From NCBI GenBank assembly GCA_014800535.1, contig JAAVFW010000023.1, positions 1 to 64,000 on the forward strand: a stretch of DNA of 64,000 nucleotides, given 5' to 3'. Both the position numbers and the translations under genes were made by a program. Shown in pieces: positions 6,829 through 64,000 of the stretch (the stretch's first letter is position 1; every line of letters starts with the position of its first letter). Under the pieces are notes generated by a model, which was given only the letters and a program-made list of their open reading frames with translations, was not told the DNA's origin and made no database searches. This stretch comes from Bacteroidales bacterium. Its GTDB lineage: Bacteria; Bacteroidota; Bacteroidia; Bacteroidales; Muribaculaceae.

Positions 6829-8805
6829 TTACTTCACTGCAACCTTTTTCGCGGTGTCGCCCTGACGGACAACGTAGATGCCGGCGGGGAGATTGTCGGT
6901 GCTGTCGGCAATCTTCACTCCGTTGAGGTTGAAGACTTCGCAGGGAGCATCCTCGTTGAAATCAGCTTCCACACTTTCGATTCCTATGTAACGCTCATCG
7001 GTAATGTTGCGGAAAAACTTCCAGGGAGAAACGTCCATAAACAATGACTGACGTCCACTGCAAACGTAGAGCGTTGCGTTCTCATAAACCTGGTTGTCAA
7101 ACACATCGGAGGTGCTCTCTACGGGGGTAGGACCATTGAACACAACATTCTTGATACTGCTGCTTTTTTCAAACACTGCACTTCCGAGAGTTTCGAGTTT
7201 CATCGGGAGAATCACATTTTCAAGAGCCCTGCACTCAGCGAATGCCTGATTGCCAATAGAGGTCACAGATTCAGGGATGGTAATTGATGTGAGACTGCTG
7301 CAACCTTCAAAAGCCCCTTCACCGATCGAGGTTACAGTGTCAGGGATAGTAATTGATGTGAGACTACTACATTCATAAAAAGTATACTCACCAATTTCTT
7401 TTACAGATTCAGGGATGTTGATTGATGTGAGACTGCTGCAAATGTAGAAAGCTCCTTCACCAATTTCGGTTACAGATTCAGGAATGGTAATTGATGTGAG
7501 TCCGCTGCAATGAGCGAAAGCAAAACTACCGATTGAGGTAACAGATTCAGGAATGACAATTGATGTGAGACCGCTGCAAACGGAGAAAGCCCTTTCACCA
7601 ATCGAGGTTACAGATTCAGGGATGATAATTGATGTGAGACTGGTACAATCCTCGAAAGCACTCTTGCCTATCGAGATTACAGATTCAGAAATGTTGATTT
7701 TTGTTAGACTGCTACATCTGTAAAAAGTATAATCGCAAATTTCTTTTACAGATTCAGGGATGGTAATTGATGTGAGACTACTGCAATCGTAGAAAGCTTT
7801 CCAACCGATGGAGGTTACAGATTCAGGGATGACAATTGACTTGAGACTGCTGCAACGGGAGAATACGGCTTCACCGATCGAAGTTACAGATTCAGGGATG
7901 GTAATTGATGTGAGACTATTGCATCCGGAGAAAGCGTATTGCCCGATTTCGGTTACAGATTCAGGGATGGCAATTGATGTGAGACTACTGCAATCCTCGA
8001 AAGCGGAGGGCCCGATTTCGGTTACAGATTCAGGGATGGTAATTGATGTGAGACTACTGCAATCCTCGAAAGCGAAGGGCCCGATTTCGGTTACAGATTC
8101 AGGGATGGCAATTGATGTGAGACTACTGCAATCGTAGAAAGCGGAGGGCCCGATTTCGGTTACAGATTCAGGAATGGTAATTGATGTGAGACTGCTGCAA
8201 CCGGAGAAAAAACCTTCTCCGATTTCGGTTACAGATTCAGGGATATTGATTGAAGTGAGACCGCTGCAACCGGCGAAAGCCCATATACCGATCGAGGTTA
8301 CAGATTCAGGTATGATAATTGATGTGAGACTGCTGCAACCATCAAAAGCTTCTTTACCGATCGAGGTTACAGATTCAGGTATGATAATTGATGTGAGACT
8401 GCTACATTTGTAGAAAGTATACTCGCTGATTTCGGTTACAGATTCAGGGATGGCAATTGATGTGAGACTGCTGCAACCGGAGAAAGCATACATGTCTATC
8501 GAGGTTACAGATTCAGGGATAGTAATTGATGTGAGTCCGCTGCAACCGCAGAAAGCACTATAACCTATTCCGATTACATCATATATTTCATCGCCATCCT
8601 TTATTTGAGAAGGAATTACGAGATTTCCACTAACTTCATTACCAGGATAATAGTCGACCCATCCTGCCTTTGTCTTGACAGTCTTGGCTTCTTCGTCGAT
8701 GACCGTGTAGGTCAGTGTCTGACCCTCGTAGGTGTACTCGATGTCGCGGGCGAACCCCGGAAGCGCGAGAATCACTATGAATAGGGTTAGTAAAAATTTT
8801 TTCAT
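6829..8805 (-). CDS. BspA-like leucine-rich repeat surface protein
   Basis: A 658-aa exported protein. The signal peptide is about residues 1-19 (MKKFLLTLFIVILALPGFA). A short N-terminal domain precedes 19 near-perfect 23-residue LRR_5 repeats (IPESVTSIGxxAFxxCSSLTSI type) from residue 97 to about 533. A further degenerate repeat, a non-repeat region and a C-terminal module follow (EVFNLNGVKIADSTDNLPAGIYVV) that resembles the beta-sandwich tails of secreted Bacteroidota proteins. Members of this family bind host or microbial surface molecules, but the ligand here is unknown. The central repeats are also nearly identical in DNA, so copy number may vary by recombination. The gene stands alone with a terminator downstream. 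Confidence 0.92.
   Translation of the reverse strand: MKKFLLTLFIVILALPGFARDIEYTYEGQTLTYTVIDEEAKTVKTKAGWVDYYPGNEVSGNLVIPSQIKDGDEIYDVIGIGYSAFCGCSGLTSITIPESVTSIDMYAFSGCSSLTSIAIPESVTEISEYTFYKCSSLTSIIIPESVTSIGKEAFDGCSSLTSIIIPESVTSIGIWAFAGCSGLTSINIPESVTEIGEGFFSGCSSLTSITIPESVTEIGPSAFYDCSSLTSIAIPESVTEIGPFAFEDCSSLTSITIPESVTEIGPSAFEDCSSLTSIAIPESVTEIGQYAFSGCNSLTSITIPESVTSIGEAVFSRCSSLKSIVIPESVTSIGWKAFYDCSSLTSITIPESVKEICDYTFYRCSSLTKINISESVISIGKSAFEDCTSLTSIIIPESVTSIGERAFSVCSGLTSIVIPESVTSIGSFAFAHCSGLTSITIPESVTEIGEGAFYICSSLTSINIPESVKEIGEYTFYECSSLTSITIPDTVTSIGEGAFEGCSSLTSITIPESVTSIGNQAFAECRALENVILPMKLETLGSAVFEKSSSIKNVVFNGPTPVESTSDVFDNQVYENATLYVCSGRQSLFMDVSPWKFFRNITDERYIGIESVEADFNEDAPCEVFNLNGVKIADSTDNLPAGIYVVRQGDTAKKVAVK
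7207..8517 (-). repeat. Tandem 69-bp coding repeats, about 19 units
   Basis: Each unit encodes one 23-aa LRR. Units in 7920-8170 differ by only a few bases, indicating recent tandem duplication. The repeats lie in frame and are not a CRISPR array. Confidence 0.9.
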
Positions 8806-9243
8806 ATTGCTATTTTCTATTTTTTCTTTATTAGGTTCTTGTTAATTATCTCTATTATTTCCTTTTTGGGAAGCTATTTCTTGCACCCCATACGCATACA
8901 AACTCTAAATCTTCAAATTGTAATTTTACATATTCCACGACTGACTGAGAAGTCAGAATGGGGAGCGGAGAAAGTTCTTTGTAAAGATAATGAAAAACAT
9001 TGAGTGGAGCAATAGCAAATGCGTCATTATGAAACTTTTTGATAGTAAGAAAGAAAAATTTGACTAAATTGTGCGCTCTTCATCTTCTCCAAGGTGGAGG
9101 TGTAAGCCGTATTAAAGCCATTAATCTTCAATTTTTTTTAAGTACATTCGAGCTTGCTAAATTTGGGGTAGCTGTGAACTATTGATGTCGGCGTAGTGTT
9201 TGAGGAGTATGATGAGTCGAACAGTAATTGAGACATTAAGATA
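8806..9243. other. 438-bp intergenic region
   Basis: This region separates two divergent genes. It is AT-rich with no supported ORF. A small hairpin CTGACT-gag-AGTCAG lies at 8940-8956. I looked for a TPP riboswitch ahead of the thiamine genes and did not find its conserved cores. Confidence 0.6.
9158..9165 (+). promoter_or_regulatory. -7 element for pnuT-TPK operon
   Basis: TAAATTTG fits the Bacteroidota -7 element and lies 79 bp upstream of the pnuT start. The -33 element is not clear. Confidence 0.4.
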
Positions 9244-9834
9244 ATGAATTATTTAGAAATAGCAGGGGTAATCATCGGGTTACTCTATCTATATCTGGAA
9301 TACCATGCTAACGTATGGCTATGGATAGTCGGTGTGATAATGCCGACTATTTATATTTTTGTCTATTATGATGCAGGGTTGTATGCCGATATGTGGATCA
9401 GTGTCTATTATATCCTGGCATCTGTTTATGGATTGATAGTGTGGATGAGAAGGCGCGCTACATCCGGGGAGCATAAAGAAGAGGGGGCTGATAACCACTC
9501 TAACCCAGCGATTACGTCTATGCCCCGGAAATATTATCTTTGGATTGGTCTGATTATAGTGGTTCTGACATTAAGTATCGGCACGTTGTTGAGCAGGCTG
9601 ACTGATTCAACTGTACCTTGGGCCGACGGTTTTACGACGGCCTTGAGCGTAGTGGCGATGTGGATGTTGGCTAAGAAATACACCCAGCAGTGGCTGATGT
9701 GGATAGCGGCCGATATTGCGTGTGCCCTCCTCTACCTTTATAAAGATTTATGGTTTACATCCGGATTATACCTGCTATATACAATAATAGCATATTTCGG
9801 ATATAAGAGATGGAGAAAGTTATGTTTACGATAG
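9244..9834 (+). CDS. pnuT: PnuC/PnuT-family vitamin transporter, probably thiamine
   Basis: A 196-aa inner-membrane protein with about seven hydrophobic segments and the PnuC family signature near the start (aromatic WLWIVGVIMPTIYIFVYYDA, residues about 26-45). PnuC proteins move vitamin nucleosides by facilitated diffusion and rely on intracellular phosphorylation to trap them. Its last 25 bases overlap the start of a thiamine pyrophosphokinase gene. In Bacteroidota this pairing is characteristic of the thiamine-specific PnuT branch rather than the nicotinamide riboside transporter. Substrate assignment therefore rests on context. An insertion of charged residues near 75-90 is a cytoplasmic or periplasmic loop. 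Confidence 0.85.
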   Translation: MNYLEIAGVIIGLLYLYLEYHANVWLWIVGVIMPTIYIFVYYDAGLYADMWISVYYILASVYGLIVWMRRRATSGEHKEEGADNHSNPAITSMPRKYYLWIGLIIVVLTLSIGTLLSRLTDSTVPWADGFTTALSVVAMWMLAKKYTQQWLMWIAADIACALLYLYKDLWFTSGLYLLYTIIAYFGYKRWRKLCLR

Positions 9835-51996: not shown

Positions 51997-52388
51997 GCAT
52001 AAAACTTTGGGGATTGGAAAACGATGGGGTGAGCTGGGGAAAGCTATAAAATGCCTTAAACTCATCATTTCAGGACATGTTGCAATAACAAAATGAGGTC
52101 CTTCTGAATAGTAGTCTATACGTCCATCATTTCATTGTTAAATATTACTCCGATAAAATTTTATAGACATTCAAAAATTTTATAAGAAAGTAATTATAGT
52201 ATTTCATAATCAGAGTCATAACTTGATGCTGATTATGAAATATTTGATACTGATTATGAAATCGACTCTCCTCGTAAGTTATAATATCACCTTTTCCTCT
52301 TTTTCTTTCCCGGAAAGTATTGAAGGAATATTTCGTTTAGACTCTGGATTGTAGGAGTTGCCATATAATCTTAATTAAAGATAATCAG
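51997..52388. other. 392-bp region with three copies of a 13-bp motif
   Basis: No gene is supported between these two convergent genes. ATTTCATAATCAG at 52201-52213 is the reverse complement of CTGATTATGAAAT, which occurs at 52229-52241 and 52250-52262. The two direct copies are 21 bp apart. See the findings. Confidence 0.55.
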
Positions 52389-53792: not shown

Positions 53793-54665
53793 CTACTCAT
53801 CCTCATAATAGTATGAGTAGTCGATGCCTTTCATGAACATCTCGCGGTCGTCAATCTTGTCGGTCAGCGCACCTTTCAGCAAAGACTTGATATGCGTTGA
53901 ATCCACCACGCTTTCACGCATTGCCGTCAGATATTCATTCTTATCAATTTGGCTCCAGTCGACGCAACGTTTCAATGAGCGACGAAGCATAAGGTCAAGC
54001 CATATCCGGGTGCTACGTCCGTTACCTTCCATAAATGGATGCACCACGTTCATCTCAACATACTTGTCTGCTATCTCGTCAAGTGTGTTTTCGGGCATTC
54101 CCTCAATGGTCGGTATGATCGTGGGGAAATGAAGACAGTTAGCAAATGTGAATCCACCCTTTGAGATATTCTTGTTTCTTATCTGTCCGGCAAATTCATA
54201 CAAGCCTCCAAACAGGTAGGCATGTATCTGTTGCAGACATTTCATACTACCAGGTTCAAGAGAGTTGAGTAATCCACTTTCAAATAAAGTGTATGCCTTC
54301 TTTCGGCTCTGACCGTCTATAGTATTGTCGCTGTAAGTGAACCAGTCAAGGAATTTGCTCGCACGATTGTTGGGATAATACTTGGCAAGAAGGATAATAT
54401 CGTCTGCTGAAAGAGCGTCGCTATTATATTGCTTGCCATCGGCAGCGACAATTTTCAGTTTGTGAGTGCCACTCACGAACTGAACGCCACCCTGTTTTAA
54501 CTTGCGCTTGAGCCAACGCCAATAGTTACCGGCTTTCGTATAGTCAGACTCATCATTGATAGCTCGCACGACGTCAGTAGCCGAAAACCACCAGCAGTTG
54601 TTCTCGTCATCCCAGACCGCCCTCACCTCGCGATCATTGAAAAACCGTATCGACTTCTTGCTCAT
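53793..54665 (-). CDS. Bro-N/Fic fusion protein, putative AMP-transferase
   Basis: A 290-aa protein. Residues 1-110 are a Bro-N-like head (VRAVWDDENNCWWFSATDVV), a phage-derived putative DNA-binding module. Residues 125-280 are a Fic domain with HPFMEGNGR at 209-217. The C-terminus SYYYEDE (284-290) resembles the class III inhibitory helix, (S/T)xxxE(G/N), but with Asp in place of Gly or Asn. The gene lies 89 bp after a 5'-nucleotidase gene on the same strand. Target and regulation are unknown. Confidence 0.88.
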   Translation of the reverse strand: MSKKSIRFFNDREVRAVWDDENNCWWFSATDVVRAINDESDYTKAGNYWRWLKRKLKQGGVQFVSGTHKLKIVAADGKQYNSDALSADDIILLAKYYPNNRASKFLDWFTYSDNTIDGQSRKKAYTLFESGLLNSLEPGSMKCLQQIHAYLFGGLYEFAGQIRNKNISKGGFTFANCLHFPTIIPTIEGMPENTLDEIADKYVEMNVVHPFMEGNGRSTRIWLDLMLRRSLKRCVDWSQIDKNEYLTAMRESVVDSTHIKSLLKGALTDKIDDREMFMKGIDYSYYYEDE

Positions 54666-54754
54666 ATATCTGGCGTCTTAGTTATACAATTTGATTAGAG
54701 ATTAGAGATCAGTTGAGACATCTCTATCCTCTGGTCGGCAGTATCTTGTTTGGT

Positions 54755-55681
54755 TTATTTGTTTGCCACACCAAATGGAATATGAACGGCAGGAATATCC
54801 TTTAGTTTCTCTAAGTGAACCATTTGATCGTCAAAGAAAATATGCGGTTTCAAAACGCCCAACACTCTGGATTTATCTATTCCTCCTAAAAAGAATACTT
54901 CATCAACCTCTACATTCATATCTCTCAAAGTGGTAACTACTCGCTCATGTGCGGGAGCATTACGGGCGGTAACTATAGAAGTTTTCAATAAAGGGACATA
55001 GTCATGTTCTCTTAATTGCTTTTTCCTCTCCATTCTCTGAAAAACGGCTATCTGTTTCAGCAATTCTCCGACAGGCCCTGAATGCAGAGGCGTCTCCGCA
55101 AGAGACCTTTCATGCTCATGGTACTTATTCATATCACCCTCTACTTCTTTATAGTAAGCCTCTGCAGAATCGTCACCAATTACACCGTCAAAATCAAATG
55201 AAACTCTTAATTCAGTATCATTTTCATCATCTGCAATATCTCCATTTATAACGGTTCCAGCAGCATAACCTGCGCTAATTGCAGCTTTTGTATCAGCTTC
55301 ATTATCTGATAGGAATAAAGCAGCGTTAAAAGAAGGGAGATATTGAAAATTAGGCTTACCGGATGAAAAGCAAGCCCTTGATATATCCAGTTTGTAGTGC
55401 TTGATGCTACGAAATGCTCTCAGCCCAGTTTCAGGGCTGTTTTTGGAAAATAAAACTACTTCAATCGGAGGATTTTCAGCGAAAGAATTATTAAGATACA
55501 ACAAACGTTTAATGAACGGGAAAGCCACTCCCTTTTCTAAAGGCGTATCGATTAGGGATGTTTGATATTTACGATATACTTCAACACCACTTTTGACAAA
55601 TATTTCATTTGACTCTCTCATGTCAAAGAGAGCACTTGAAGATACTGCTACAACAAATTTCTTTTCTATTGGGTAAGGCAT
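54755..55681 (-). CDS. 5'-nucleotidase, NT5C1-like
   Basis: A 308-aa cytoplasmic enzyme resembling the cytosolic 5'-nucleotidase 1 family, which dephosphorylates nucleoside monophosphates. Visible marks are the start KKFVVAVSSSALFDMRESNE, the acid-phosphatase DxD in RVSFDFDGVIGDDSAE, and the late IFFDDQMVHLEKLK. Its position between a hypothetical gene and a Fic gene in an island is unusual for a metabolic enzyme. A role in nucleotide depletion or in clearing Fic by-products is speculation. Confidence 0.82.
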   Translation of the reverse strand: MPYPIEKKFVVAVSSSALFDMRESNEIFVKSGVEVYRKYQTSLIDTPLEKGVAFPFIKRLLYLNNSFAENPPIEVVLFSKNSPETGLRAFRSIKHYKLDISRACFSSGKPNFQYLPSFNAALFLSDNEADTKAAISAGYAAGTVINGDIADDENDTELRVSFDFDGVIGDDSAEAYYKEVEGDMNKYHEHERSLAETPLHSGPVGELLKQIAVFQRMERKKQLREHDYVPLLKTSIVTARNAPAHERVVTTLRDMNVEVDEVFFLGGIDKSRVLGVLKPHIFFDDQMVHLEKLKDIPAVHIPFGVANK

Positions 55682-56364: not shown

Positions 56365-56454
56365 AATAACAGATATTATAGATTATATAGACTCTGACTA
56401 CTTTATGTAGTTTGTTTAGAAAGAGTAGCATCACAAAATTAGACATTTTTAAGA

Positions 56455-56492
56455 GAACTACCAAAAGCAATCTCGGTAGTTCTATAATTTTT
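56455..56492 (+). terminator. Hairpin with T tract upstream of invertase
   Basis: GAACTACC and GGTAGTTC (56455-56462 and 56475-56482) form a stem followed by TATAATTTTTTT. It could terminate or attenuate transcription reading toward the invertase. Confidence 0.55.
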
Positions 56493-56545
56493 TTGATAAA
56501 ATATTTGATGAGTATATTCATCTATAATTTTAGATTGAGTATATT

Positions 56546-56576
56546 ATAGTTCATACTTTAAGACAAAATGAACTAT
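56546..56576 (+). promoter_or_regulatory. Inverted repeat over invertase start codon
   Basis: ATAGTTCA (56546-56553) and TGAACTAT (56569-56576) are perfect inverted arms, and the second covers the ATG at 56575. It may be an operator or an RNA hairpin masking initiation. Confidence 0.5.
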
Positions 56577-57180
56577 GGTATATGGATACATACGAGTAAG
56601 TTCAGACAAACAGACTGTCGAGAACCAGCGTTTCGAGATAAATAATTTCTGCGAACGCGAGAATCTGACCATTGACGGTTGGATAGAGGAAACTATTTCC
56701 GGGACAAAAGCCTATAGTAAGCGTCAGCTCGGCGTACTTCTTAAACGCATTAAGAAGGATGATTTAATCATCTGCGCTGAGTTATCACGACTCGGTCGTA
56801 ACCTCTTCATGATTATGGAGATTCTTAACGTATGTATGACTAAAGAGGCGAAAGTCTGGACAATCAAGGACAATTATCGTCTTGGAGATGATATACAATC
56901 AAAGGTACTCGCTTTTGCCTTTGGTCTTTCGGCAGAAATAGAGAGAAACCTTATATCTCAGCGTACAAAAGAAGCTTTGGCTCGAAAAAGAGCAGAAGGA
57001 GTAACTCTCGGTCGACCAAAAGGACGCAGGAACTCACCTGATAAATATAAACTAAGTGGAAAAGAGACCCTAATTAGGGAATTGATTAATGCCGGAGTAT
57101 CGAAACGTAAAATTGCAAAAATTTGCAAGGTTGATAGGAATACCCTAGACAGATTCATCAAGTATATGGAGAGTAATTGA
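56575..57180 (+). CDS. Serine site-specific DNA invertase, Mpi family
   Basis: A 201-aa serine recombinase. The catalytic domain starts MVYGYIRVSSDKQTVENQRF with the nucleophile expected at Ser9, contains ELSRLGRN and EIERNLISQRTKEALARKRA, and the C-terminal domain is a helix-turn-helix (GVSKRKIAKICKVDRNTLDR). Mpi-type enzymes flip promoters or coding cassettes in Bacteroides. It lies directly beside recognition-domain cassettes and a methyltransferase fragment whose junctions are reciprocal products of an inversion, so it is the likely flipase of this locus. Its stop codon overlaps the TTG of the next frame (TTGA). Confidence 0.93.
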   Translation: MVYGYIRVSSDKQTVENQRFEINNFCERENLTIDGWIEETISGTKAYSKRQLGVLLKRIKKDDLIICAELSRLGRNLFMIMEILNVCMTKEAKVWTIKDNYRLGDDIQSKVLAFAFGLSAEIERNLISQRTKEALARKRAEGVTLGRPKGRRNSPDKYKLSGKETLIRELINAGVSKRKIAKICKVDRNTLDRFIKYMESN

Positions 57181-59210
57181 GCGATTTTGTTCAGCAAAAC
57201 GCCTCCACAGTAGATTTTGAATCTATTGGTTCTGATAGCTGGGTAATACTATCTCCGATAGAGATTAGTATAAAACGTAAGATAGAGTCTGTTGGTGTTC
57301 CATTGAAAGACTGGGATATCAAAATCTATCGTGGTGTTCTCACTGGATACAATGACGCATTTATCATTTCTACTGAAACTAGAGAGGATATTTTGAATAA
57401 TTGTGCATCCGAAGAAGAGCGTAAGCGCACTGAGGAATTAATACGACCCATTCTTCGTGGCCGTGACATCAAGCGTTACGGCTACGATTGGGCTGGATTA
57501 TACCTCATTGCAACATTTCCTTCGCGCCACTATAATATAGAGGAATATCCTGCTGTAAAGGAATATTTACTGTCGTTCGGTATGGAACGCTTGGAGCAGA
57601 CAGGTAAAGAATACATTATCGACGGACAAAAGGTCAAAGCGCGTAAAAAGACCAACAACAAGTGGTTTGAGACACAAGATAGCATCAGCTATTGGGACAA
57701 TTTTCTTGATGGTGTGCTCGAACCCCTTTTCTTTGAAGTGTTGAATACAGACAAACCCTATCGCACTGCTGTGGCTAAATCATTACCGGGTATTGATAAT
57801 ATTCCTTATCTTAATGGTGGGTTATTCGCTCGCGATGAGATTGATGAGCGCACATGTGTTTTCCCAGAGGATATATTTAAGCGACTTTTTGATTTTCTCG
57901 ATAGTTACAATTTCACAATCGATGAGAACGACACTGACGATGCTGAAATTGGTATCGATCCTGAAATGCTTGGTCGTATCTTTGAAAATCTTCTTGAAGA
58001 TAACAAAGATAAGGGCGCTTTCTATACTCCTAAAGAGATTGTAGATTATATGTGCCGCGAATCTATTATTGCATATCTTATCACTGGTATTCCGGAACGT
58101 TCTCATAAACTAATTCGAAATTTTGTTGAGACTCTTGACGCGTCAGACCTTGACGAAAAGCAGCGTTCATATATACGTAAACAACTCCAAACGGTAAAAA
58201 TTTGCGACCCGGCAATCGGTTCGGGCGCATTCCCAATGGGGCTTGTGAATCTTCTCTCAAAGCTATATGTAGCAATGAAAGCAGATACAGACACTGCAAA
58301 AATGAAACGCCATATTATGGAGCAAAACATATATGGTGTGGATATTGAACAGGGTGCTGTGGATATTGCTCGTCTCCGCTTTTGGCTTGCAATGATTGTT
58401 GAGGAAAAGGAGGCGATCCCATTGCCAAACTTACACTTTAAGATTATGCAAGGCAACTCGCTCCTTGAAAGTTATAATGGTGCTAACCTTGCAGACCTCA
58501 CCAAGATTAGCGGTCAGTCAAGCTTGTTCGATTCTGATAATTCTGAGCGAGAGGCGCTTATTTCATCTTTAAAATCTTATTACAAGACATCAGATCACGC
58601 AAAGCGCGATAAACTGTTTAACGACATAATTAATAATGTCCGTCGCCAGTTATTCGATAAAGGAATCACATTGCAGGCAGGAAAAGATCCATCCGCAAAT
58701 AGTGATTTTTTCCTGTGGCACACATGGTTTACAGATGTGTTTACATCCGGGGGCTTTGACATCGTCATCGGCAATCCCCCTTATATCCAATTGCAAAAGT
58801 CATTGGGTATAACTGCTATTGATAAGAAGGGGAAGGAATATGATATGAAGCTTGGCGATTTATATAAAGATGCCAACTTCGCAACCTTTGAGAAAACCGG
58901 TGATATTTATTGCCTATTCTACGAACTCGGCAATAAGATGTTGAAAGATGGAGGTCATCTGTGCTATATAACGTCAAATAAGTGGATGCGCGCTGGATAT
59001 GGCGAAAGACTGCGTTCATATCTTTCAAAGAGTACCAATCCTAAAATCCTTATTGATTTTGGTGGAATCCAAATTTTTGATAGCGCAACCGTAGACACAA
59101 ATATATTGCTAATCCAGAAAGCGAAAAATCAAAAATCTACGATGGCTGTAACGGCAAGTAAGCACGACAAAACTATCCTCAATAATTTGAGCCATTCTTC
59201 GTGGCCGTGA
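57177..59210 (+). pseudogene. Scrambled type IIG methyltransferase: recognition front half fused to catalytic domain
   Basis: A 677-codon frame from a TTG at 57177, made of displaced pieces. Residues 1-176 are the front half of a target-recognition domain (LKDWDIKIYRGVLTGYNDAF, RPILRGRDIKRYGYDW) ending SISYWDNF. Residues 177 onward are the middle of an Eco57I-like methyltransferase, starting LDGVLEPLFFEVLN. It has the SAM motif DPAIGSGAF and the catalytic NPPY (DIVIGNPPYIQLQ). The expected N-terminal part is missing; it lies on the opposite strand at 61324-60486. After NNLS the frame breaks into HSSWP and stops, because 266 bp of recognition domain are absent. As it stands the product is unlikely to be a working enzyme. 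One inversion could rebuild the N-terminal half. Confidence 0.8.
57448..57494 (+). repeat. 47-bp direct repeat, copy 1
   Basis: Identical to 59192-59238 and encoding the conserved ILRGRDIKRYGYDW segment of recognition domains. It lets front halves be exchanged or deleted by homologous recombination. Confidence 0.9.
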
Positions 59211-59238
59211 CATCAAGCGTTACGGCTACGATTGGGCT
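59192..59238 (+). repeat. 47-bp direct repeat, copy 2
   Basis: Partner of 57448-57494. Here it follows TTGAGC directly, whereas in copy 1 TTGAGC lies 266 bp farther upstream, so copy 2 carries an out-of-frame deletion of the recognition-domain front. Confidence 0.9.
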
Positions 59239-59796
59239 AATCTATGGCTCATCAACACCCATAACGGCATAAAAGGTAAACTTGATAGAATTCATATAGA
59301 AGATTATCCGGCAGTAAAGGCACACCTTGACCAATATTGGGATAAAATTTCCACTCGCGCAGATAAGGGTGACACCCCATACAATCTACGTAACTGCGCT
59401 TATTTGGACGATTTTAATAAGACACAAATAGTCTGGCTTGAACTAACTGATGAGCCTAAGTTTACTTTAGTAAACAAAATGGTTTCGCTGAATACAGTAT
59501 TCTTTATGACAGGTGAGCATTTACCACATATTTTAGGTCAACTCAATTCAAAACTAATTACATGGTATTTTCATAAGTGTCTCGGAGCTCGTTCTGGGGT
59601 TGGAACAAATAGATGGCTAAAATACACAATAGAACAGCTACCTTTGGCACCTTATGCAGAAGGGTATGGTGAAAAAGCACATATGTTGAATAAAAAATAT
59701 TCAGCAAATTGTGACGAAGTAGTTAATCATCTAACTTGCGGTCTATTCGGTTTAACAGAAACTGAGGAGGAATTTGTCAATCAATTCCATGTATAG
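59194..59796 (+). pseudogene. Target-recognition cassette, 5'-deleted
   Basis: The frame is open for 200 codons from ILRGRDIKRYGYDWANLWLI to a TAG at 59794-59796. It includes the standard back-half entry DDFNKTQIVWLELTDEPKF and the C-terminal FGLTETEEEFVNQ. It is a recognition domain of the type found at the C-terminus of Eco57I-like enzymes, but it is joined out of frame to the catalytic domain at 59192. It has no start codon of its own and is probably silent in this arrangement. Confidence 0.75.
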
Positions 59797-59822
59797 GACG
59801 ATTTTTCTAAGCCAAAAATCGT
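59795..59822 (+). repeat. 28-bp inverted repeat, left copy
   Basis: Begins AGGACGATTTTTCTAAGCC and encodes DDFSKPKIV. The exact reverse complement is at 60471-60498. It is the likely crossover site for a 648-bp invertible segment. Confidence 0.9.
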
Positions 59823-60180
59823 TTGGAAACGAATAGGCTCTATTCTGCGTTTCTCTTTTGATGATTCAGGATGTGTAGGACTGGATAGCACCTGTTTTGC
59901 AACCGGTACTGACTTACCATATTTAGTCTGCGTACTAAATTCAAAGATTGGCCACTACCTTCTAAAGGATTCTCCGAAAACTGGAACTGGAGATCTATTA
60001 ATAAGTGTACAAGCAATTGAACCACTTAAGATTCCTTTAATTTCCGATGGAGAACTCTATGTTGATTGGCTGCGTGAAATTCTAAATGGTTCTCTGTCAG
60101 CGGAAGACAGGGTGTTTACGTTATTGGCTGACTCCTATGGCTTCAATCAAGAAGAACGTGATTATATTTTGACGCAATAA
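59797..60180 (+). pseudogene. Silent recognition-domain back half
   Basis: An open frame of 127 codons with no start, beginning DDFSKPKIVWKRIGSI and ending FNQEERDYILTQ at a TAA. It is a back half of a recognition domain directly after another cassette. Through the shared 28-bp repeat it could be joined in frame to the minus-strand N-terminal domain by inversion. Its end overlaps the end of the minus-strand gene by 38 bp. Confidence 0.75.
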
Positions 60181-61324
60181 ACGAAATCTCCTCATGAGTG
60201 AAATTAAATGATTTATGCCAATGAGTCAATGATTTAGGCAGTTTAACACATTCAACAAACTGTCTCAACCAACGCCATCCGGTTTCATCAAACTTCGTAC
60301 ATATGACATCAAGTTGATAAAGAGAAACTGCCGAGTTCAAAAGTTCACATAATCTACCAAGTTCATCTATAGAAAGAACATCTGATGTTAAAATATATCC
60401 AGTATTTCCAAGAAACATTGCTTTATCATCTATTGCAAATGCAGTACCCTTACGGCACAGTTCTTGATATACGATTTTTGGCTTAGAAAAATCGTCCTTT
60501 TTATCGGAGTTCACAAAGAGGTCATGCATATACTGACGATTACCGTCAAGCCAACCTTTACGCTGCAGAAAGTAGAGGAATACTATCCGACCAAACATCT
60601 TTTTGATGTAGTCTCGTACCAGTTTATCATCCTTTTCAAAAGTGGATTGATATTGATAATTGGGCGTTCCAAGCTGTTTTTCTTCCCATTTACCCTTCTC
60701 CTTAACATATCGTTTTCCAGTGATATACTGCACAAAATCGGCATAGATGTCACGGTATTTAACGAAAAATTCATCACTAAGAGTGGCAACGGAGAATGCC
60801 TTTTCAAAGTCTTCATCATTTCGCGAGCTCTTAGCGAGCACGTCAAATCGTTCTGCAGCGGTACGCCCACGATAACCTTTGCCAAAAACGTAGGTATAGC
60901 GTTTGGCAGATGTTGTGTCTTTTAATGAATCACCTTTGTATGCGTAAGAGAATCTCCACTGCTTATTTGCAACATTCTCGTAATGGAATACAATCATGAG
61001 ATGCTGACGGTAGTCCATTATGGAACGGATAAGCTGCTGAATATTGACACGGGAACGCTCAATATTCTTTGAGTCATCAAGCGTAACGTCGAGTAGGGCT
61101 ATATTGCGAGCGTTGTAGTTCTTTTCTGTGAGATCGCCTATATACTTTATATGCTTAATACCGGCGTTCTTAGCTTTTTCGACATATTTTTCGTTTTCGG
61201 CAAGATCGTCGTTTATATATTCGATTTCATTGCCGAATATTGGCACAATAACATCAGCTATGAAACGGTCAGTTCCGGGATAGTCACTGTTAAATATCTT
61301 TTCTAACTTATGCTTGAGTTCCAT
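60143..61324 (-). CDS. Type IIG N-terminal domain fused to a recognition-domain back half, catalytic domain missing
   Basis: A 393-aa frame starting 2 bp after the helicase stop. Residues 1-279 match the N-terminal part of Eco57I-like restriction-modification proteins, ending VNSDKKDDF. A nuclease role for this part is likely by family but no clear motif is claimed here. Residues 280-393 are a recognition-domain back half (SKPKIVYQELCRKGTAFAID, ending FTHEEISFIASKYNHVLLD). The methyltransferase core that should lie between them is on the opposite strand at 57702-59192. The protein may be expressed with the helicase but cannot methylate. In a flipped arrangement a full enzyme of roughly 1000 aa would result. 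Confidence 0.78.
   Translation of the reverse strand: MELKHKLEKIFNSDYPGTDRFIADVIVPIFGNEIEYINDDLAENEKYVEKAKNAGIKHIKYIGDLTEKNYNARNIALLDVTLDDSKNIERSRVNIQQLIRSIMDYRQHLMIVFHYENVANKQWRFSYAYKGDSLKDTTSAKRYTYVFGKGYRGRTAAERFDVLAKSSRNDEDFEKAFSVATLSDEFFVKYRDIYADFVQYITGKRYVKEKGKWEEKQLGTPNYQYQSTFEKDDKLVRDYIKKMFGRIVFLYFLQRKGWLDGNRQYMHDLFVNSDKKDDFSKPKIVYQELCRKGTAFAIDDKAMFLGNTGYILTSDVLSIDELGRLCELLNSAVSLYQLDVICTKFDETGWRWLRQFVECVKLPKSLTHWHKSFNFTHEEISFIASKYNHVLLD
60471..60498 (-). repeat. 28-bp inverted repeat, right copy
   Basis: Exact reverse complement of 59795-59822, located inside the minus-strand gene at residues about 276-285. Confidence 0.9.
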
Positions 61325-61326
61325 AG

Positions 61327-64000
61327 TCAGTTATTGTTTTTGGTTTCAGAATAAAGAACGAGTTTAACCTCTCCCCGTTTTGCCTGAGCGCGGTTAGCTA
61401 AATTTGAAAGAGCAGCTTCGAGGAGGGCATTGATATCTTCGTCAGTTCCGAAAAGCGAGCCTTGATAGTTCTCAAACCTCATAACTTGCTTAATGACGTA
61501 GTTATCTTTTGCTCTGACGAGTTTTTCAATTTGTTTCAAGAGCTTTTTAGACTCCTGTGTAACATCGGAACGTGAGCGTAAATCATCGAGCACAGCCAGA
61601 GCATTTTTTGATTTTTTGCTTGAATCAGAGGCTGTGATGTAGTGGGCGACATGCTTTTGATAGGCGCGCTTAGCTGCATCAAAAAGTATTGTATCTAACT
61701 TTTTGTTTGAGTATTCGGCGTCAGGGGTACATTTCAGTAGCTGCATAGTTGCAAGAGAGGAGATGATTCGTGAAGGGGTGTCTTCCTGTGTTTTCTCTAC
61801 CTCTACAGAAATCAGCTCTTGTGAGTTGTCAGTAAATACGAAAATTCCATGAGAGTTTTCTTCATTCGTTTGTAAAACACCTCCAAGTCCGTCAGCATCT
61901 ACAGAGGAAATATAATCGTATCGTTCAGGTGAATGAACTTGGAATGCTTTAAGCTCCTTGATAAACGGTCCAAACGGTGATTCATCGCCATCAACGAAAT
62001 GTTGGAGGTCATGCTCAACAAGCTCTTCACGTTCACTGAATACCTTATTATCCTCGCCAAACATCTCATGGAATGATTGAAGTTTCGCGTATGCCTTTTC
62101 AATCAGGCGAATCTGGCTGTTGCCTTCATCTGATGGAAAGAAATTAAAGACATGGACGAAATCTTCAGTAGATCCTATACGGTTCACACGACCGATACGC
62201 TGCATTAAACGAGTTGCATTCCACGGGGCATCATAATTTAGAATGACATTAGAACGATGCAGATTCACGCCTTCGGCAAGGACTTCGGTGGTAACAATCA
62301 CGTCATAATCATCACGACGACTCTCCGGCTTGCAGTTTGCGTCGAAGTTCGCCTCAATCGCCTCCTGCATTTCAGTGCGGTTCTGCGCTGAAACCTCAAG
62401 AACACGATATTTTCGCGCTCGAAGGGCCCTCGCTACAACTTTTTGTGTGTCGATTGCCTCGGTAAATATGACTAAGCGAGGTTTATTTAGACCCGAAGGA
62501 TTGTTAATCTCTCGATTGAAAAGTTCATCCTTTATGGCTTCCTTAAAGCGGTCAAATTTAGGGTCTTCGGTATTACGATCCCATCTTTTGAGTAGTCTAT
62601 CTATCAATTTCTTGTCATTCTTTAGCTTGTCAAGATAATTTATATCGAAGTCAGATGCTTTAAACCGCCGGTTGTTTTCTCCTTTTTGGGCAATCAAAGT
62701 CTCAACTTTAGTCTTAAACTCAGAAAAGTTTTTAGCTTCTGAATGTAATTTGTTAATATCTATGTCAGGACAGATATATACACAATCATTTTGTAGCATA
62801 TCAATCATGACATCAGTATAACTTAAGAGATTGTTAAGAGTTATCTTAAAGGCAGGAATACTACTCTCAAGACGTTTGACAAGCAGTATACGCATAATAC
62901 GTTTTAAGCGCTTGGTAATTATATGTACGTCTAAGTTGCGTTTTTTGTATAGGTCTTTATGCTTGGAATCTTTAAAATGTGAAATCGCCGCGTAACGGTG
63001 AAATCCAATACGGTTCGGGTCATCAATATCATTACTATCGTCTTTTTGTGGTAAACAAATAGCATCAACCGTATCAGCAAAAAGCTTTGATAGTTCCTCA
63101 TCCATTCGGTATTCGAGTTTATGAGGCCCTTTCACGGTGGGGAATTTGAGTAATTCAGCATCTTCACCGTAGAGATTTCTAATATCGGTACGGGTACGAC
63201 GAACAACGAGGTCATTAAGGACGCAATTTCTGATTTTTTCAGAAACTTCCTTTACAATAGCACGAGCTTCTGCTTTACCCTCGTCGGTGTCTTGCGAAAT
63301 AGCTCGTGCCTCTTTAAAGCGTCGTTCCATCTCACTGAATAGAGAGTCGAGTTTGCCTCCCTCAACATTCGGCAAATTGGAGTTATTTGGCGTGCGCTGA
63401 AATAAACGTATCTGATTATAAAGATCCTTTGGCGAATTATTCTGGGGCGTAGCAGACAGTAGTGCGACGTATGGAGTGGGATTGATAAGACCGATTAGGT
63501 CATCAATCGCTTTATATTTCTGAGTTTCTGAATTGCGGAAGTTGTGGCTCTCGTCAATGAGCACCATTCCATAGTTGCCGACCTCTAAGTTCTCGATTTC
63601 GTCATTGTCTTCAATATCGTCGGTATTTTCCAGCTCGTCTGCGATTTTTCCGATGCTTCCGGTAGTTACGAAATCAACGCTGAGTTCAATATTATTACGA
63701 GGATTATCATTGTCAAAATCCTTGATTGTCTTTTCCCATGCTTTCTTAATCGCCGGAGGTGTTACAATCAGAACTTTGCGGGCACGACCAAGTGATTCGG
63801 CATTTTCAAGAAAATGACGGATCAGTAATACTCCAACCACAGTTTTACCAAGTCCTACAACGTCGCCAAGAATAAAGCCTCCGAATCGTTTCATCACAGA
63901 AAAACACTGTTTTACTGCGTCAAGCTGATATTCAAGGGTGTTGAATGACGGTGGCAAATACGATTTTAGGACTTCTGATGTATTGGCATCAACCATATCA
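61327..64000 (-). CDS. SNF2-type helicase, N-terminus beyond window
   Basis: At least 889 aa of a superfamily 2 ATPase. Walker A is VGLGKT (residues 47-52 from the last in-window ATG), motif II DESH is at 148-151 and motif III SATP at 181-184. The C-terminal half has TEVLAEGVNLHRSNVILNYD and motif VI QRIGRVNRIG. The frame stays open past the ATG at 63996, and relatives usually carry about 200 further N-terminal residues, often PLD-like, so the gene is cut by the edge. Its stop is 2 bp from the start of the type IIG N-terminal gene, giving one operon. It probably powers DNA translocation for the restriction system. Confidence 0.88.
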   Translation of the reverse strand, partial: DMVDANTSEVLKSYLPPSFNTLEYQLDAVKQCFSVMKRFGGFILGDVVGLGKTVVGVLLIRHFLENAESLGRARKVLIVTPPAIKKAWEKTIKDFDNDNPRNNIELSVDFVTTGSIGKIADELENTDDIEDNDEIENLEVGNYGMVLIDESHNFRNSETQKYKAIDDLIGLINPTPYVALLSATPQNNSPKDLYNQIRLFQRTPNNSNLPNVEGGKLDSLFSEMERRFKEARAISQDTDEGKAEARAIVKEVSEKIRNCVLNDLVVRRTRTDIRNLYGEDAELLKFPTVKGPHKLEYRMDEELSKLFADTVDAICLPQKDDSNDIDDPNRIGFHRYAAISHFKDSKHKDLYKKRNLDVHIITKRLKRIMRILLVKRLESSIPAFKITLNNLLSYTDVMIDMLQNDCVYICPDIDINKLHSEAKNFSEFKTKVETLIAQKGENNRRFKASDFDINYLDKLKNDKKLIDRLLKRWDRNTEDPKFDRFKEAIKDELFNREINNPSGLNKPRLVIFTEAIDTQKVVARALRARKYRVLEVSAQNRTEMQEAIEANFDANCKPESRRDDYDVIVTTEVLAEGVNLHRSNVILNYDAPWNATRLMQRIGRVNRIGSTEDFVHVFNFFPSDEGNSQIRLIEKAYAKLQSFHEMFGEDNKVFSEREELVEHDLQHFVDGDESPFGPFIKELKAFQVHSPERYDYISSVDADGLGGVLQTNEENSHGIFVFTDNSQELISVEVEKTQEDTPSRIISSLATMQLLKCTPDAEYSNKKLDTILFDAAKRAYQKHVAHYITASDSSKKSKNALAVLDDLRSRSDVTQESKKLLKQIEKLVRAKDNYVIKQVMRFENYQGSLFGTDEDINALLEAALSNLANRAQAKRGEVKLVLYSETKNNN

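Follow-up and report, generated by a model that had tools for sequence, protein, structure and literature searches.

A probable recognition-domain shufflon in a helicase-linked type IIG-like locus of a Muribaculaceae assembly, with N-terminal domain and catalytic core on opposite strands

The contig JAAVFW010000023.1 of the Bacteroidales bacterium assembly GCA_014800535.1 (Muribaculaceae; 26 contigs, 68% complete) is 65,665 bp long, and its first 64,000 bases, the window analysed here, close with a locus that encodes an invertase, a helicase and, scattered over both strands, the parts of a type IIG-like adenine methyltransferase. We propose, at a probability of about 0.7, that this locus encodes a helicase-linked type IIG-like system with a shufflon for its recognition domain, and that the assembly shows it in an OFF state after an inversion at a site that we call W and an inversion at a cryptic site, Z. 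Its layout is that of a shufflon, in which a recombinase gene lies beside inverted sites for the exchange of active with silent pieces. The arrangement in this assembly is probably switched off, and the locus may alternate between states.

On the minus strand, read from right to left, a helicase of 1144 amino acids (aa) with a PLD-like N-terminal domain and intact helicase motifs is followed, after a 2-bp gap, by a 393-aa open reading frame (ORF; 61324-60143) in which the methyltransferase N-terminal domain (N) is fused to a back recognition segment, B3. The start of this ORF matches the N-terminus of a type IIG model (PADLOC PDLC03596, residues 37-263, E 4.2e-15), and its residues 277-366 match the C-terminal part of PDLC03601 (positions 972-1056). 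The plus strand carries, in order, an Mpi-family invertase, a 677-aa ORF (57177-59210) composed of a front segment (F1), a middle segment (M1) and the catalytic core, a middle-back pair, M2-B1 (201 aa), and a further back segment, B2 (127 aa). The 677-aa ORF matches the Eco57I/N6-methylase core (Pfam Eco57I E 8e-41; PADLOC IIG E 4.9e-130), and its matches to both Eco57I and N6_Mtase, together with motifs I and IV, identify an N6-adenine methyltransferase core. The single polypeptide of N-domain, core and recognition domain is here split over two strands, and the junctions are reciprocal, reading YWDNF/LDGVLEP near 57,699 and KKDDF/SKPKIV near 60,494 (Table 1). The invertase belongs to the Mpi family, contains the motifs YIRVSS and ELSRLGR, and is predicted from its sequence to catalyse inversion.

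A sequence-only reading of this stretch had described the same domain order, repeats and reciprocal junctions, and all three are confirmed here, the domains by profile matches to the type IIG model for N and to Eco57I for the core. The Mpi-type invertase that it placed beside the recognition pieces is borne out by a family score above the cut-off and by relatives with inverted silent cassettes. Its inventory of recognition pieces stands for the three back halves, B3 having been checked in frame, and fails for the two front halves, in place of which we find one complete front, F1, and a front-less M2. The restriction-modification label fits the methyltransferase core, with its Eco57I match and motifs I and IV; a restriction role of the N-domain is conjectural. 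Searched against PDB sequences, the N-domain profile found no convincing match (best E 0.007), and a search of viral contigs with the N-domain returned no relatives.

For comparison we collected 85 loci with a core ORF, 80 from contigs fetched by core similarity and five from regions in genomes of the same genus; two genomes are present twice in this core-based sample. N-domain and core share one ORF in all 85 (L088 has a frame break inside N), which upholds both the view of one enzyme split over two strands and the kinship of N-terminus and core in full-length homologues. The helicase was matched in 80 of the 85, the remaining five loci lying at contig ends, and the recurrent unit among the relatives is two genes, helicase and methyltransferase; the coupling to a helicase suggested earlier agrees with this pairing and with the 2-bp spacing seen here. 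Sliding identity further shows the gene to be a mosaic: residues 1-160 of N are nearest to G010 (80-98%); residues 200-275 of N and residues 1-365 of the core, which lie on opposite strands here, are nearest to L014, L098 and L017, with catalytic (CAT) residues 1-362 at 88% identity to L014; and the remainder of the core, F, M and the invertase are nearest to L022, L025, L026, L029 and similar loci. Because the second of these blocks spans the strand break, it supports a common origin of both pieces. The mosaic has three parts (57702-59192 and 60500-61324), with breakpoints within the N-domain and near motif IV.

We cut the locus at the sequence cores shared between sites, giving eight blocks, and reversed the rearrangements in silico. 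Undoing an inversion between sites Y and Z (57,699 / 60,494) yields a 780-aa N-core ORF, and a subsequent W inversion yields a 1063-aa ORF of N, core, F1, M1 and B3, so that the full-length frame predicted earlier is recovered after two inversions. All six combinations of M and B are open, at 1052-1075 aa. With each cut point randomly displaced by as much as 30 bp, 1 of 2000 trials left all six longer than 1000 aa; this control probes frame and stops, not homology. Aligned with the gene of L026, the M1-B3 isoform shows 54% identity over 948 columns, with zero gaps at the residues of the Z, W, X and Y junctions. Enumeration of inversions between sites of the same class gives 24 states, four of them with a full-length gene; if the 47-bp repeats at X are also allowed to pair, these numbers become 48 and eight.

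The sites at which pieces are exchanged can be read from relatives. Near 14 of the 85 loci lies an Mpi-like invertase with an identity of at least about 53%, and L096 has a distant one (29%). Nine of the 14 (L022, L025, L026, L029, L030, L036, L047, L088 and L090) have an intact gene facing a silent cassette of F, M and B parts on the opposite strand, the cassette of L036 being without F; the others are L050 and a sister group of four (L046, L066, L071 and L093). Between active and silent copies, stretches at up to three sites are identical: at W in 6 pairs, at X in 8 and at Y in 5. These stretches contain the GC of GAGC in all six W pairs, the CC of GACC or GCCC in all eight X pairs, and the GG of GGAS in all five Y pairs, and their boundaries fall exactly at these bases for W in L088 and L090, for X in L047 and L036, and for Y in L025, L047 and L088; the silent Y of L022 runs into N. 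In the sister group the shared stretch lies at FDIVIGNPPY, just before motif IV, and contains the palindrome CCCTCAAAAGAGGG; exchange there starts ahead of motif IV and so takes in a portion of the catalytic domain as well.

A second scrambled locus, L101 (an IMG/VR contig, 8340-9302), has its middle segment inverted in place between F and B. Its minus-strand copy of Y (8749-8772) and its plus-strand copy of the right part of X (from 8771) overlap by exactly CC, which fits what is expected if X, TATACGA-CC-GATTC, crossed in opposite orientation with Y, TATTG-GG-AGGATTTT, the expected left part of Y being taken from relatives. This overlap and the identity boundaries point to GC, CC and GG as the putative crossover centres of W, X and Y, respectively. 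The X and Y centres are complementary, and so the middle segment could flip in place, as in L101. A palindrome within the 28-bp repeat was also considered as the recombinase site and rejected, as the boundaries in relatives and L101 point to the GG just to its left. We suggest only tentatively, and hold it to be doubtful, that these centre bases form a code that sets exchange partners and direction, with drift towards a Y-like sequence at the N/core boundary permitting a reversible whole-enzyme off switch on top of changes in specificity.

We propose that the locus encodes a two-gene, defence-type system made up of a PLD(HKD)-SNF2 helicase and, after it, an adenine methyltransferase of the Eco57I/type IIG-like kind. 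Interchangeable front, middle and back segments would make up the recognition domain of this methyltransferase. The neighbouring Mpi-family invertase would recombine these pieces at three short sites: W between core and front, X (RPILRGRDIKRY) between front and middle, and Y (DDFxKPKI) between middle and back. Crossover at a 2-bp centre would preserve the reading frame, and thus the choice of M and B could yield six different enzymes. An ordinary W inversion may have parked F1-M1-B3 beside the invertase; a second inversion, between the Y site of that cassette and a Y-like cryptic Z between N-domain and core, would then have placed the core on the plus strand. The methyltransferase should be OFF as long as its N-domain and core lie on different strands, and the same inversions run backwards would restore it.

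Several observations weigh against this proposal. Z scores 5.0 bits on a matrix built for Y, a value reached by 57 of 127,974 window positions, and the sequence of Z is itself a reconstruction; Yb lies outside the 14 best scores; and the matrix was trained on sites chosen by the pattern GGA[CG]GATTT, so the test is partly circular. With the centres assigned as GC for W and CC for X, the centre rule offers no clean route to the hybrid W/X junction, and a history of two inversions leaves the first origin of this junction unexplained. A single front segment remains in place of the usual two. In L175 (1-3784), M-B is inverted relative to N-core-F with junctions at none of W, X or Y. The F-M-B segments and invertase resemble different genera than the helicase and N-domain do, and these parts may therefore not be well adapted to one another. 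Finally, the source species is represented by one assembly, and no alternative arrangement was seen. The low matrix score also weakens the case for Z as a conserved programmed site, and flipping of the core as an ordinary mode of switching is not supported, since N and core stay joined in every one of the 85 relatives and Z is a weak match. Deletion of a second front segment between W and X was considered and set aside, as two inversions starting from a single-front gene give the same order without it.

An order present in no single molecule could have arisen if a short-read assembler merged mixed inversion states. Exact repeats longer than 11 bp in 56,400-61,400 are limited to a 47-bp direct pair (57448-57494 / 59192-59238) and a 28-bp inverted pair (59795-59822 / 60471-60498), which would let an assembler swap paths, and the 28-bp repeat could have changed which back segment follows N; the incompleteness and fragmentation of the genome add to this concern, and contigs of relatives often break at such sites. 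When front plus middle was searched against genomes of the order, 54 of 393 matched; against those of the class, 21 of 395 did (the source genome counted in each). The 20 regions chosen from these matches contain 19 contig ends; a W, X or Y pattern lies no more than 65 bp from 8 of these ends, and at exactly 54 bp from two of the 8. For Bacteroides sp. GM023, one contig stops at the last base of a 19-bp W repeat and another 44 bp beyond W. Such breaks fit mixed arrangements, and repeats alone can also cause them. However, the M1/core junction lies within no exact repeat longer than 11 bp, and thus repeats alone do not explain the split; moreover, N/B3 is reciprocal to M1/core, both are in frame, and undoing one inversion restores the 780-aa ORF. 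We therefore regard an assembly artefact as unlikely.

Alternatively, accidental rearrangements may have inactivated the system permanently, leaving the invertase as a relic of a decaying locus. The lone front segment, the out-of-frame hybrid W/X junction and the absence of this split from all 85 relatives are in keeping with decay; against it, all segments, the invertase and the motifs of core and helicase are open and intact, and the six rebuilt isoforms are free of stops that decay would soon introduce, and we judge this explanation decidedly improbable. That the split products, N-B3 (393 aa) and F1-M1-core (677 aa, starting at a TTG that overlaps the invertase stop), work together as one permuted enzyme of two chains, or serve as regulators, is very hard to credit, for although both fusions are in frame and each closely follows another gene, in-frame fusion is automatic if all Y and Z cores share a codon phase, and no such split gene occurs among the 85 relatives.

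Table 1. Positions of the genes, segments, candidate sites and junctions that make up the locus.
Feature	Position	Strand	Details
Mpi-family serine invertase	56575..57180	+	201 aa; NCBIfam NF009949 345.1 bits (cut-off 272); Pfam Resolvase E 5e-33
Site W1	57177..57182	+	core TTGAGC, at end of invertase gene; predicted centre GC 57181-57182; W identity boundaries in six relatives
Front recognition segment F1	57183..57448	+	only front here; 63-72% identity to F of L022, L025, L026, L029, L032, L034
Site X1	57445..57494	+	RPILRGRDIKRY; opens the 47-bp direct repeat; predicted centre CC 57447-57448
Middle recognition segment M1	57449..57698	+	78-85% identity to the middle segment (MID) of L022, L025, L026, L029, L036
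Abnormal junction M1/core	57691..57706	+	left part of Y joined to right part of Z; crossover 57,699; second-best Y-matrix score of the window
Methyltransferase catalytic core	57699..59192	+	motif I DPAIGSG at 58,206; motif IV NPPY at 58,773
Hybrid junction, W-left/X-right	59186..59238	+	core end NNLS joined out of frame to HSSW-stop; second copy of the 47-bp repeat
Middle recognition segment M2	59193..59409	+	without front; 60% identity to MID over 41-45 aa
Site Ya	59402..59425	+	M2/B1 boundary; top Y-matrix score of the window
Back recognition segment B1	59410..59796	+	Pfam TaqI_C 27.0 bits (cut-off 26.5); PADLOC IIG C-terminal part
Site Yb	59795..59822	+	head of B2; 28-bp repeat
Back recognition segment B2	59800..60180	+	headless, begins at its own Y site; 78% over 80 aa to back segment of L099; 53% to cassette of L026
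Back recognition segment B3	60143..60493	-	in-frame fusion to N-domain; PADLOC IIG C-terminal match; 41% over 88 aa to back segment of L161
Abnormal junction N/B3	60471..60498	-	left part of Z joined to right part of Y; 28-bp repeat; crossover 60,494; Y-matrix rank 8
Methyltransferase N-terminal domain	60494..61324	-	277 aa; model pLDDT (predicted local distance difference test) 87
PLD-SNF2 helicase	61327..64000	-	1144 aa; continues past the window to contig base 64,761; Pfam PLDc_2, SNF2-rel_dom, Helicase_C

Some further features of these loci and of their surroundings were recorded. Downstream of the invertase (53793-55681), the window contains a gene of the 5'-nucleotidase family and encodes a Fic/DOC protein that matches Bro-N weakly, and at 52200-52262 there are short, near-identical direct and inverted repeats around TGATTATGAAAT. 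In L099, a 101-bp stretch at the start of the cassette's F is tandemly duplicated, and the F of the active gene is damaged and out of frame (7638-8000 and 9180-9420). The locus has crossed phyla. In L030, from Treponema parvum, helicase and methyltransferase are separated by an additional gene with a match to PADLOC PDC-S05 (7089-8102). A contig of G077, from the same genus, encodes an invertase 83% identical to the one described here, flanked by a 45-bp inverted repeat (L188, 5423-6890), and neither a matching methyltransferase nor a matching helicase is present on that 13,120-bp contig.

If the shufflon proposal is right, the locus is a compact natural example of a modular enzyme of the restriction type, built from parts that swap in frame at defined sites, and its isoforms can be predicted. 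It would also show that a locus which passes for a broken gene in a metagenome assembly may represent one of the states between which a system switches, so that defence systems are probably under-counted or mis-annotated.

DISARM class 1, ARMADA and the BREX-related systems centred on DUF499 resemble this locus in having an adenine methyltransferase beside a SNF2-type helicase (PMC12458937, PMC12839542); type-2 BREX-related systems pair an HKD nuclease with a Swi2/Snf2 helicase (PMC12839542). DISARM and BREX were considered here because of DrmD-like and PglX-like matches, and both were rejected: the first scored 129.4 bits against a cut-off of 610, on the 889-aa part of the helicase that lies in the window, and the second 80.7 bits against 500, on the 677-aa scrambled ORF in place of a full-length gene. 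YprA, DUF499, DUF3780 and PglZ were identified in none of the ORFs scanned around the helicase/methyltransferase pair, and the DUF499 ATPase is not among the Pfam matches of the ORFs at 49.7-56.4 kb, no targeted search of the genome having been made. Our partial coverage of the literature turned up no report of this helicase-linked shufflon, and we make no claim that it is unpublished.

The type IIG enzyme of Campylobacter jejuni is said to switch by slippage at simple repeats and not by inversion. It is alike in being a phase-variable type IIG enzyme that is switched at random (PMC4889913). Among type I systems, it is well established that recognition domains are inverted (PMC4948785, PMC11868660). 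Among these the hsdS shufflons, such as Streptococcus pneumoniae cod/SpnIII, share several classes of inverted repeat and part-by-part exchange of recognition domains (PMC4948785); they act on a separate S subunit with the tyrosine recombinase PsrA, whereas one polypeptide and a serine invertase are found here. The invertase of our locus falls into the same NCBIfam family as the Mpi master invertase of Bacteroides fragilis. That enzyme reportedly flips promoters, a finding attributed to Coyne in 2003, whereas the candidate targets in our locus lie within coding sequence. Milman, Yelin and Kishony (NAR 2023) are reported to have described programmed gene-altering inversions in type II restriction-modification genes, with an intact gene beside an inverted partial copy. 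There, inversion likewise reportedly swaps the recognition part, and the present locus differs in its three segment classes, a putative site code of three centres, the PLD-SNF2 helicase partner and the inverted core. Type II inversion is, by that account, already known; what is unusual here is the inverted catalytic core, the build from three segments and the proposed centre-base code.

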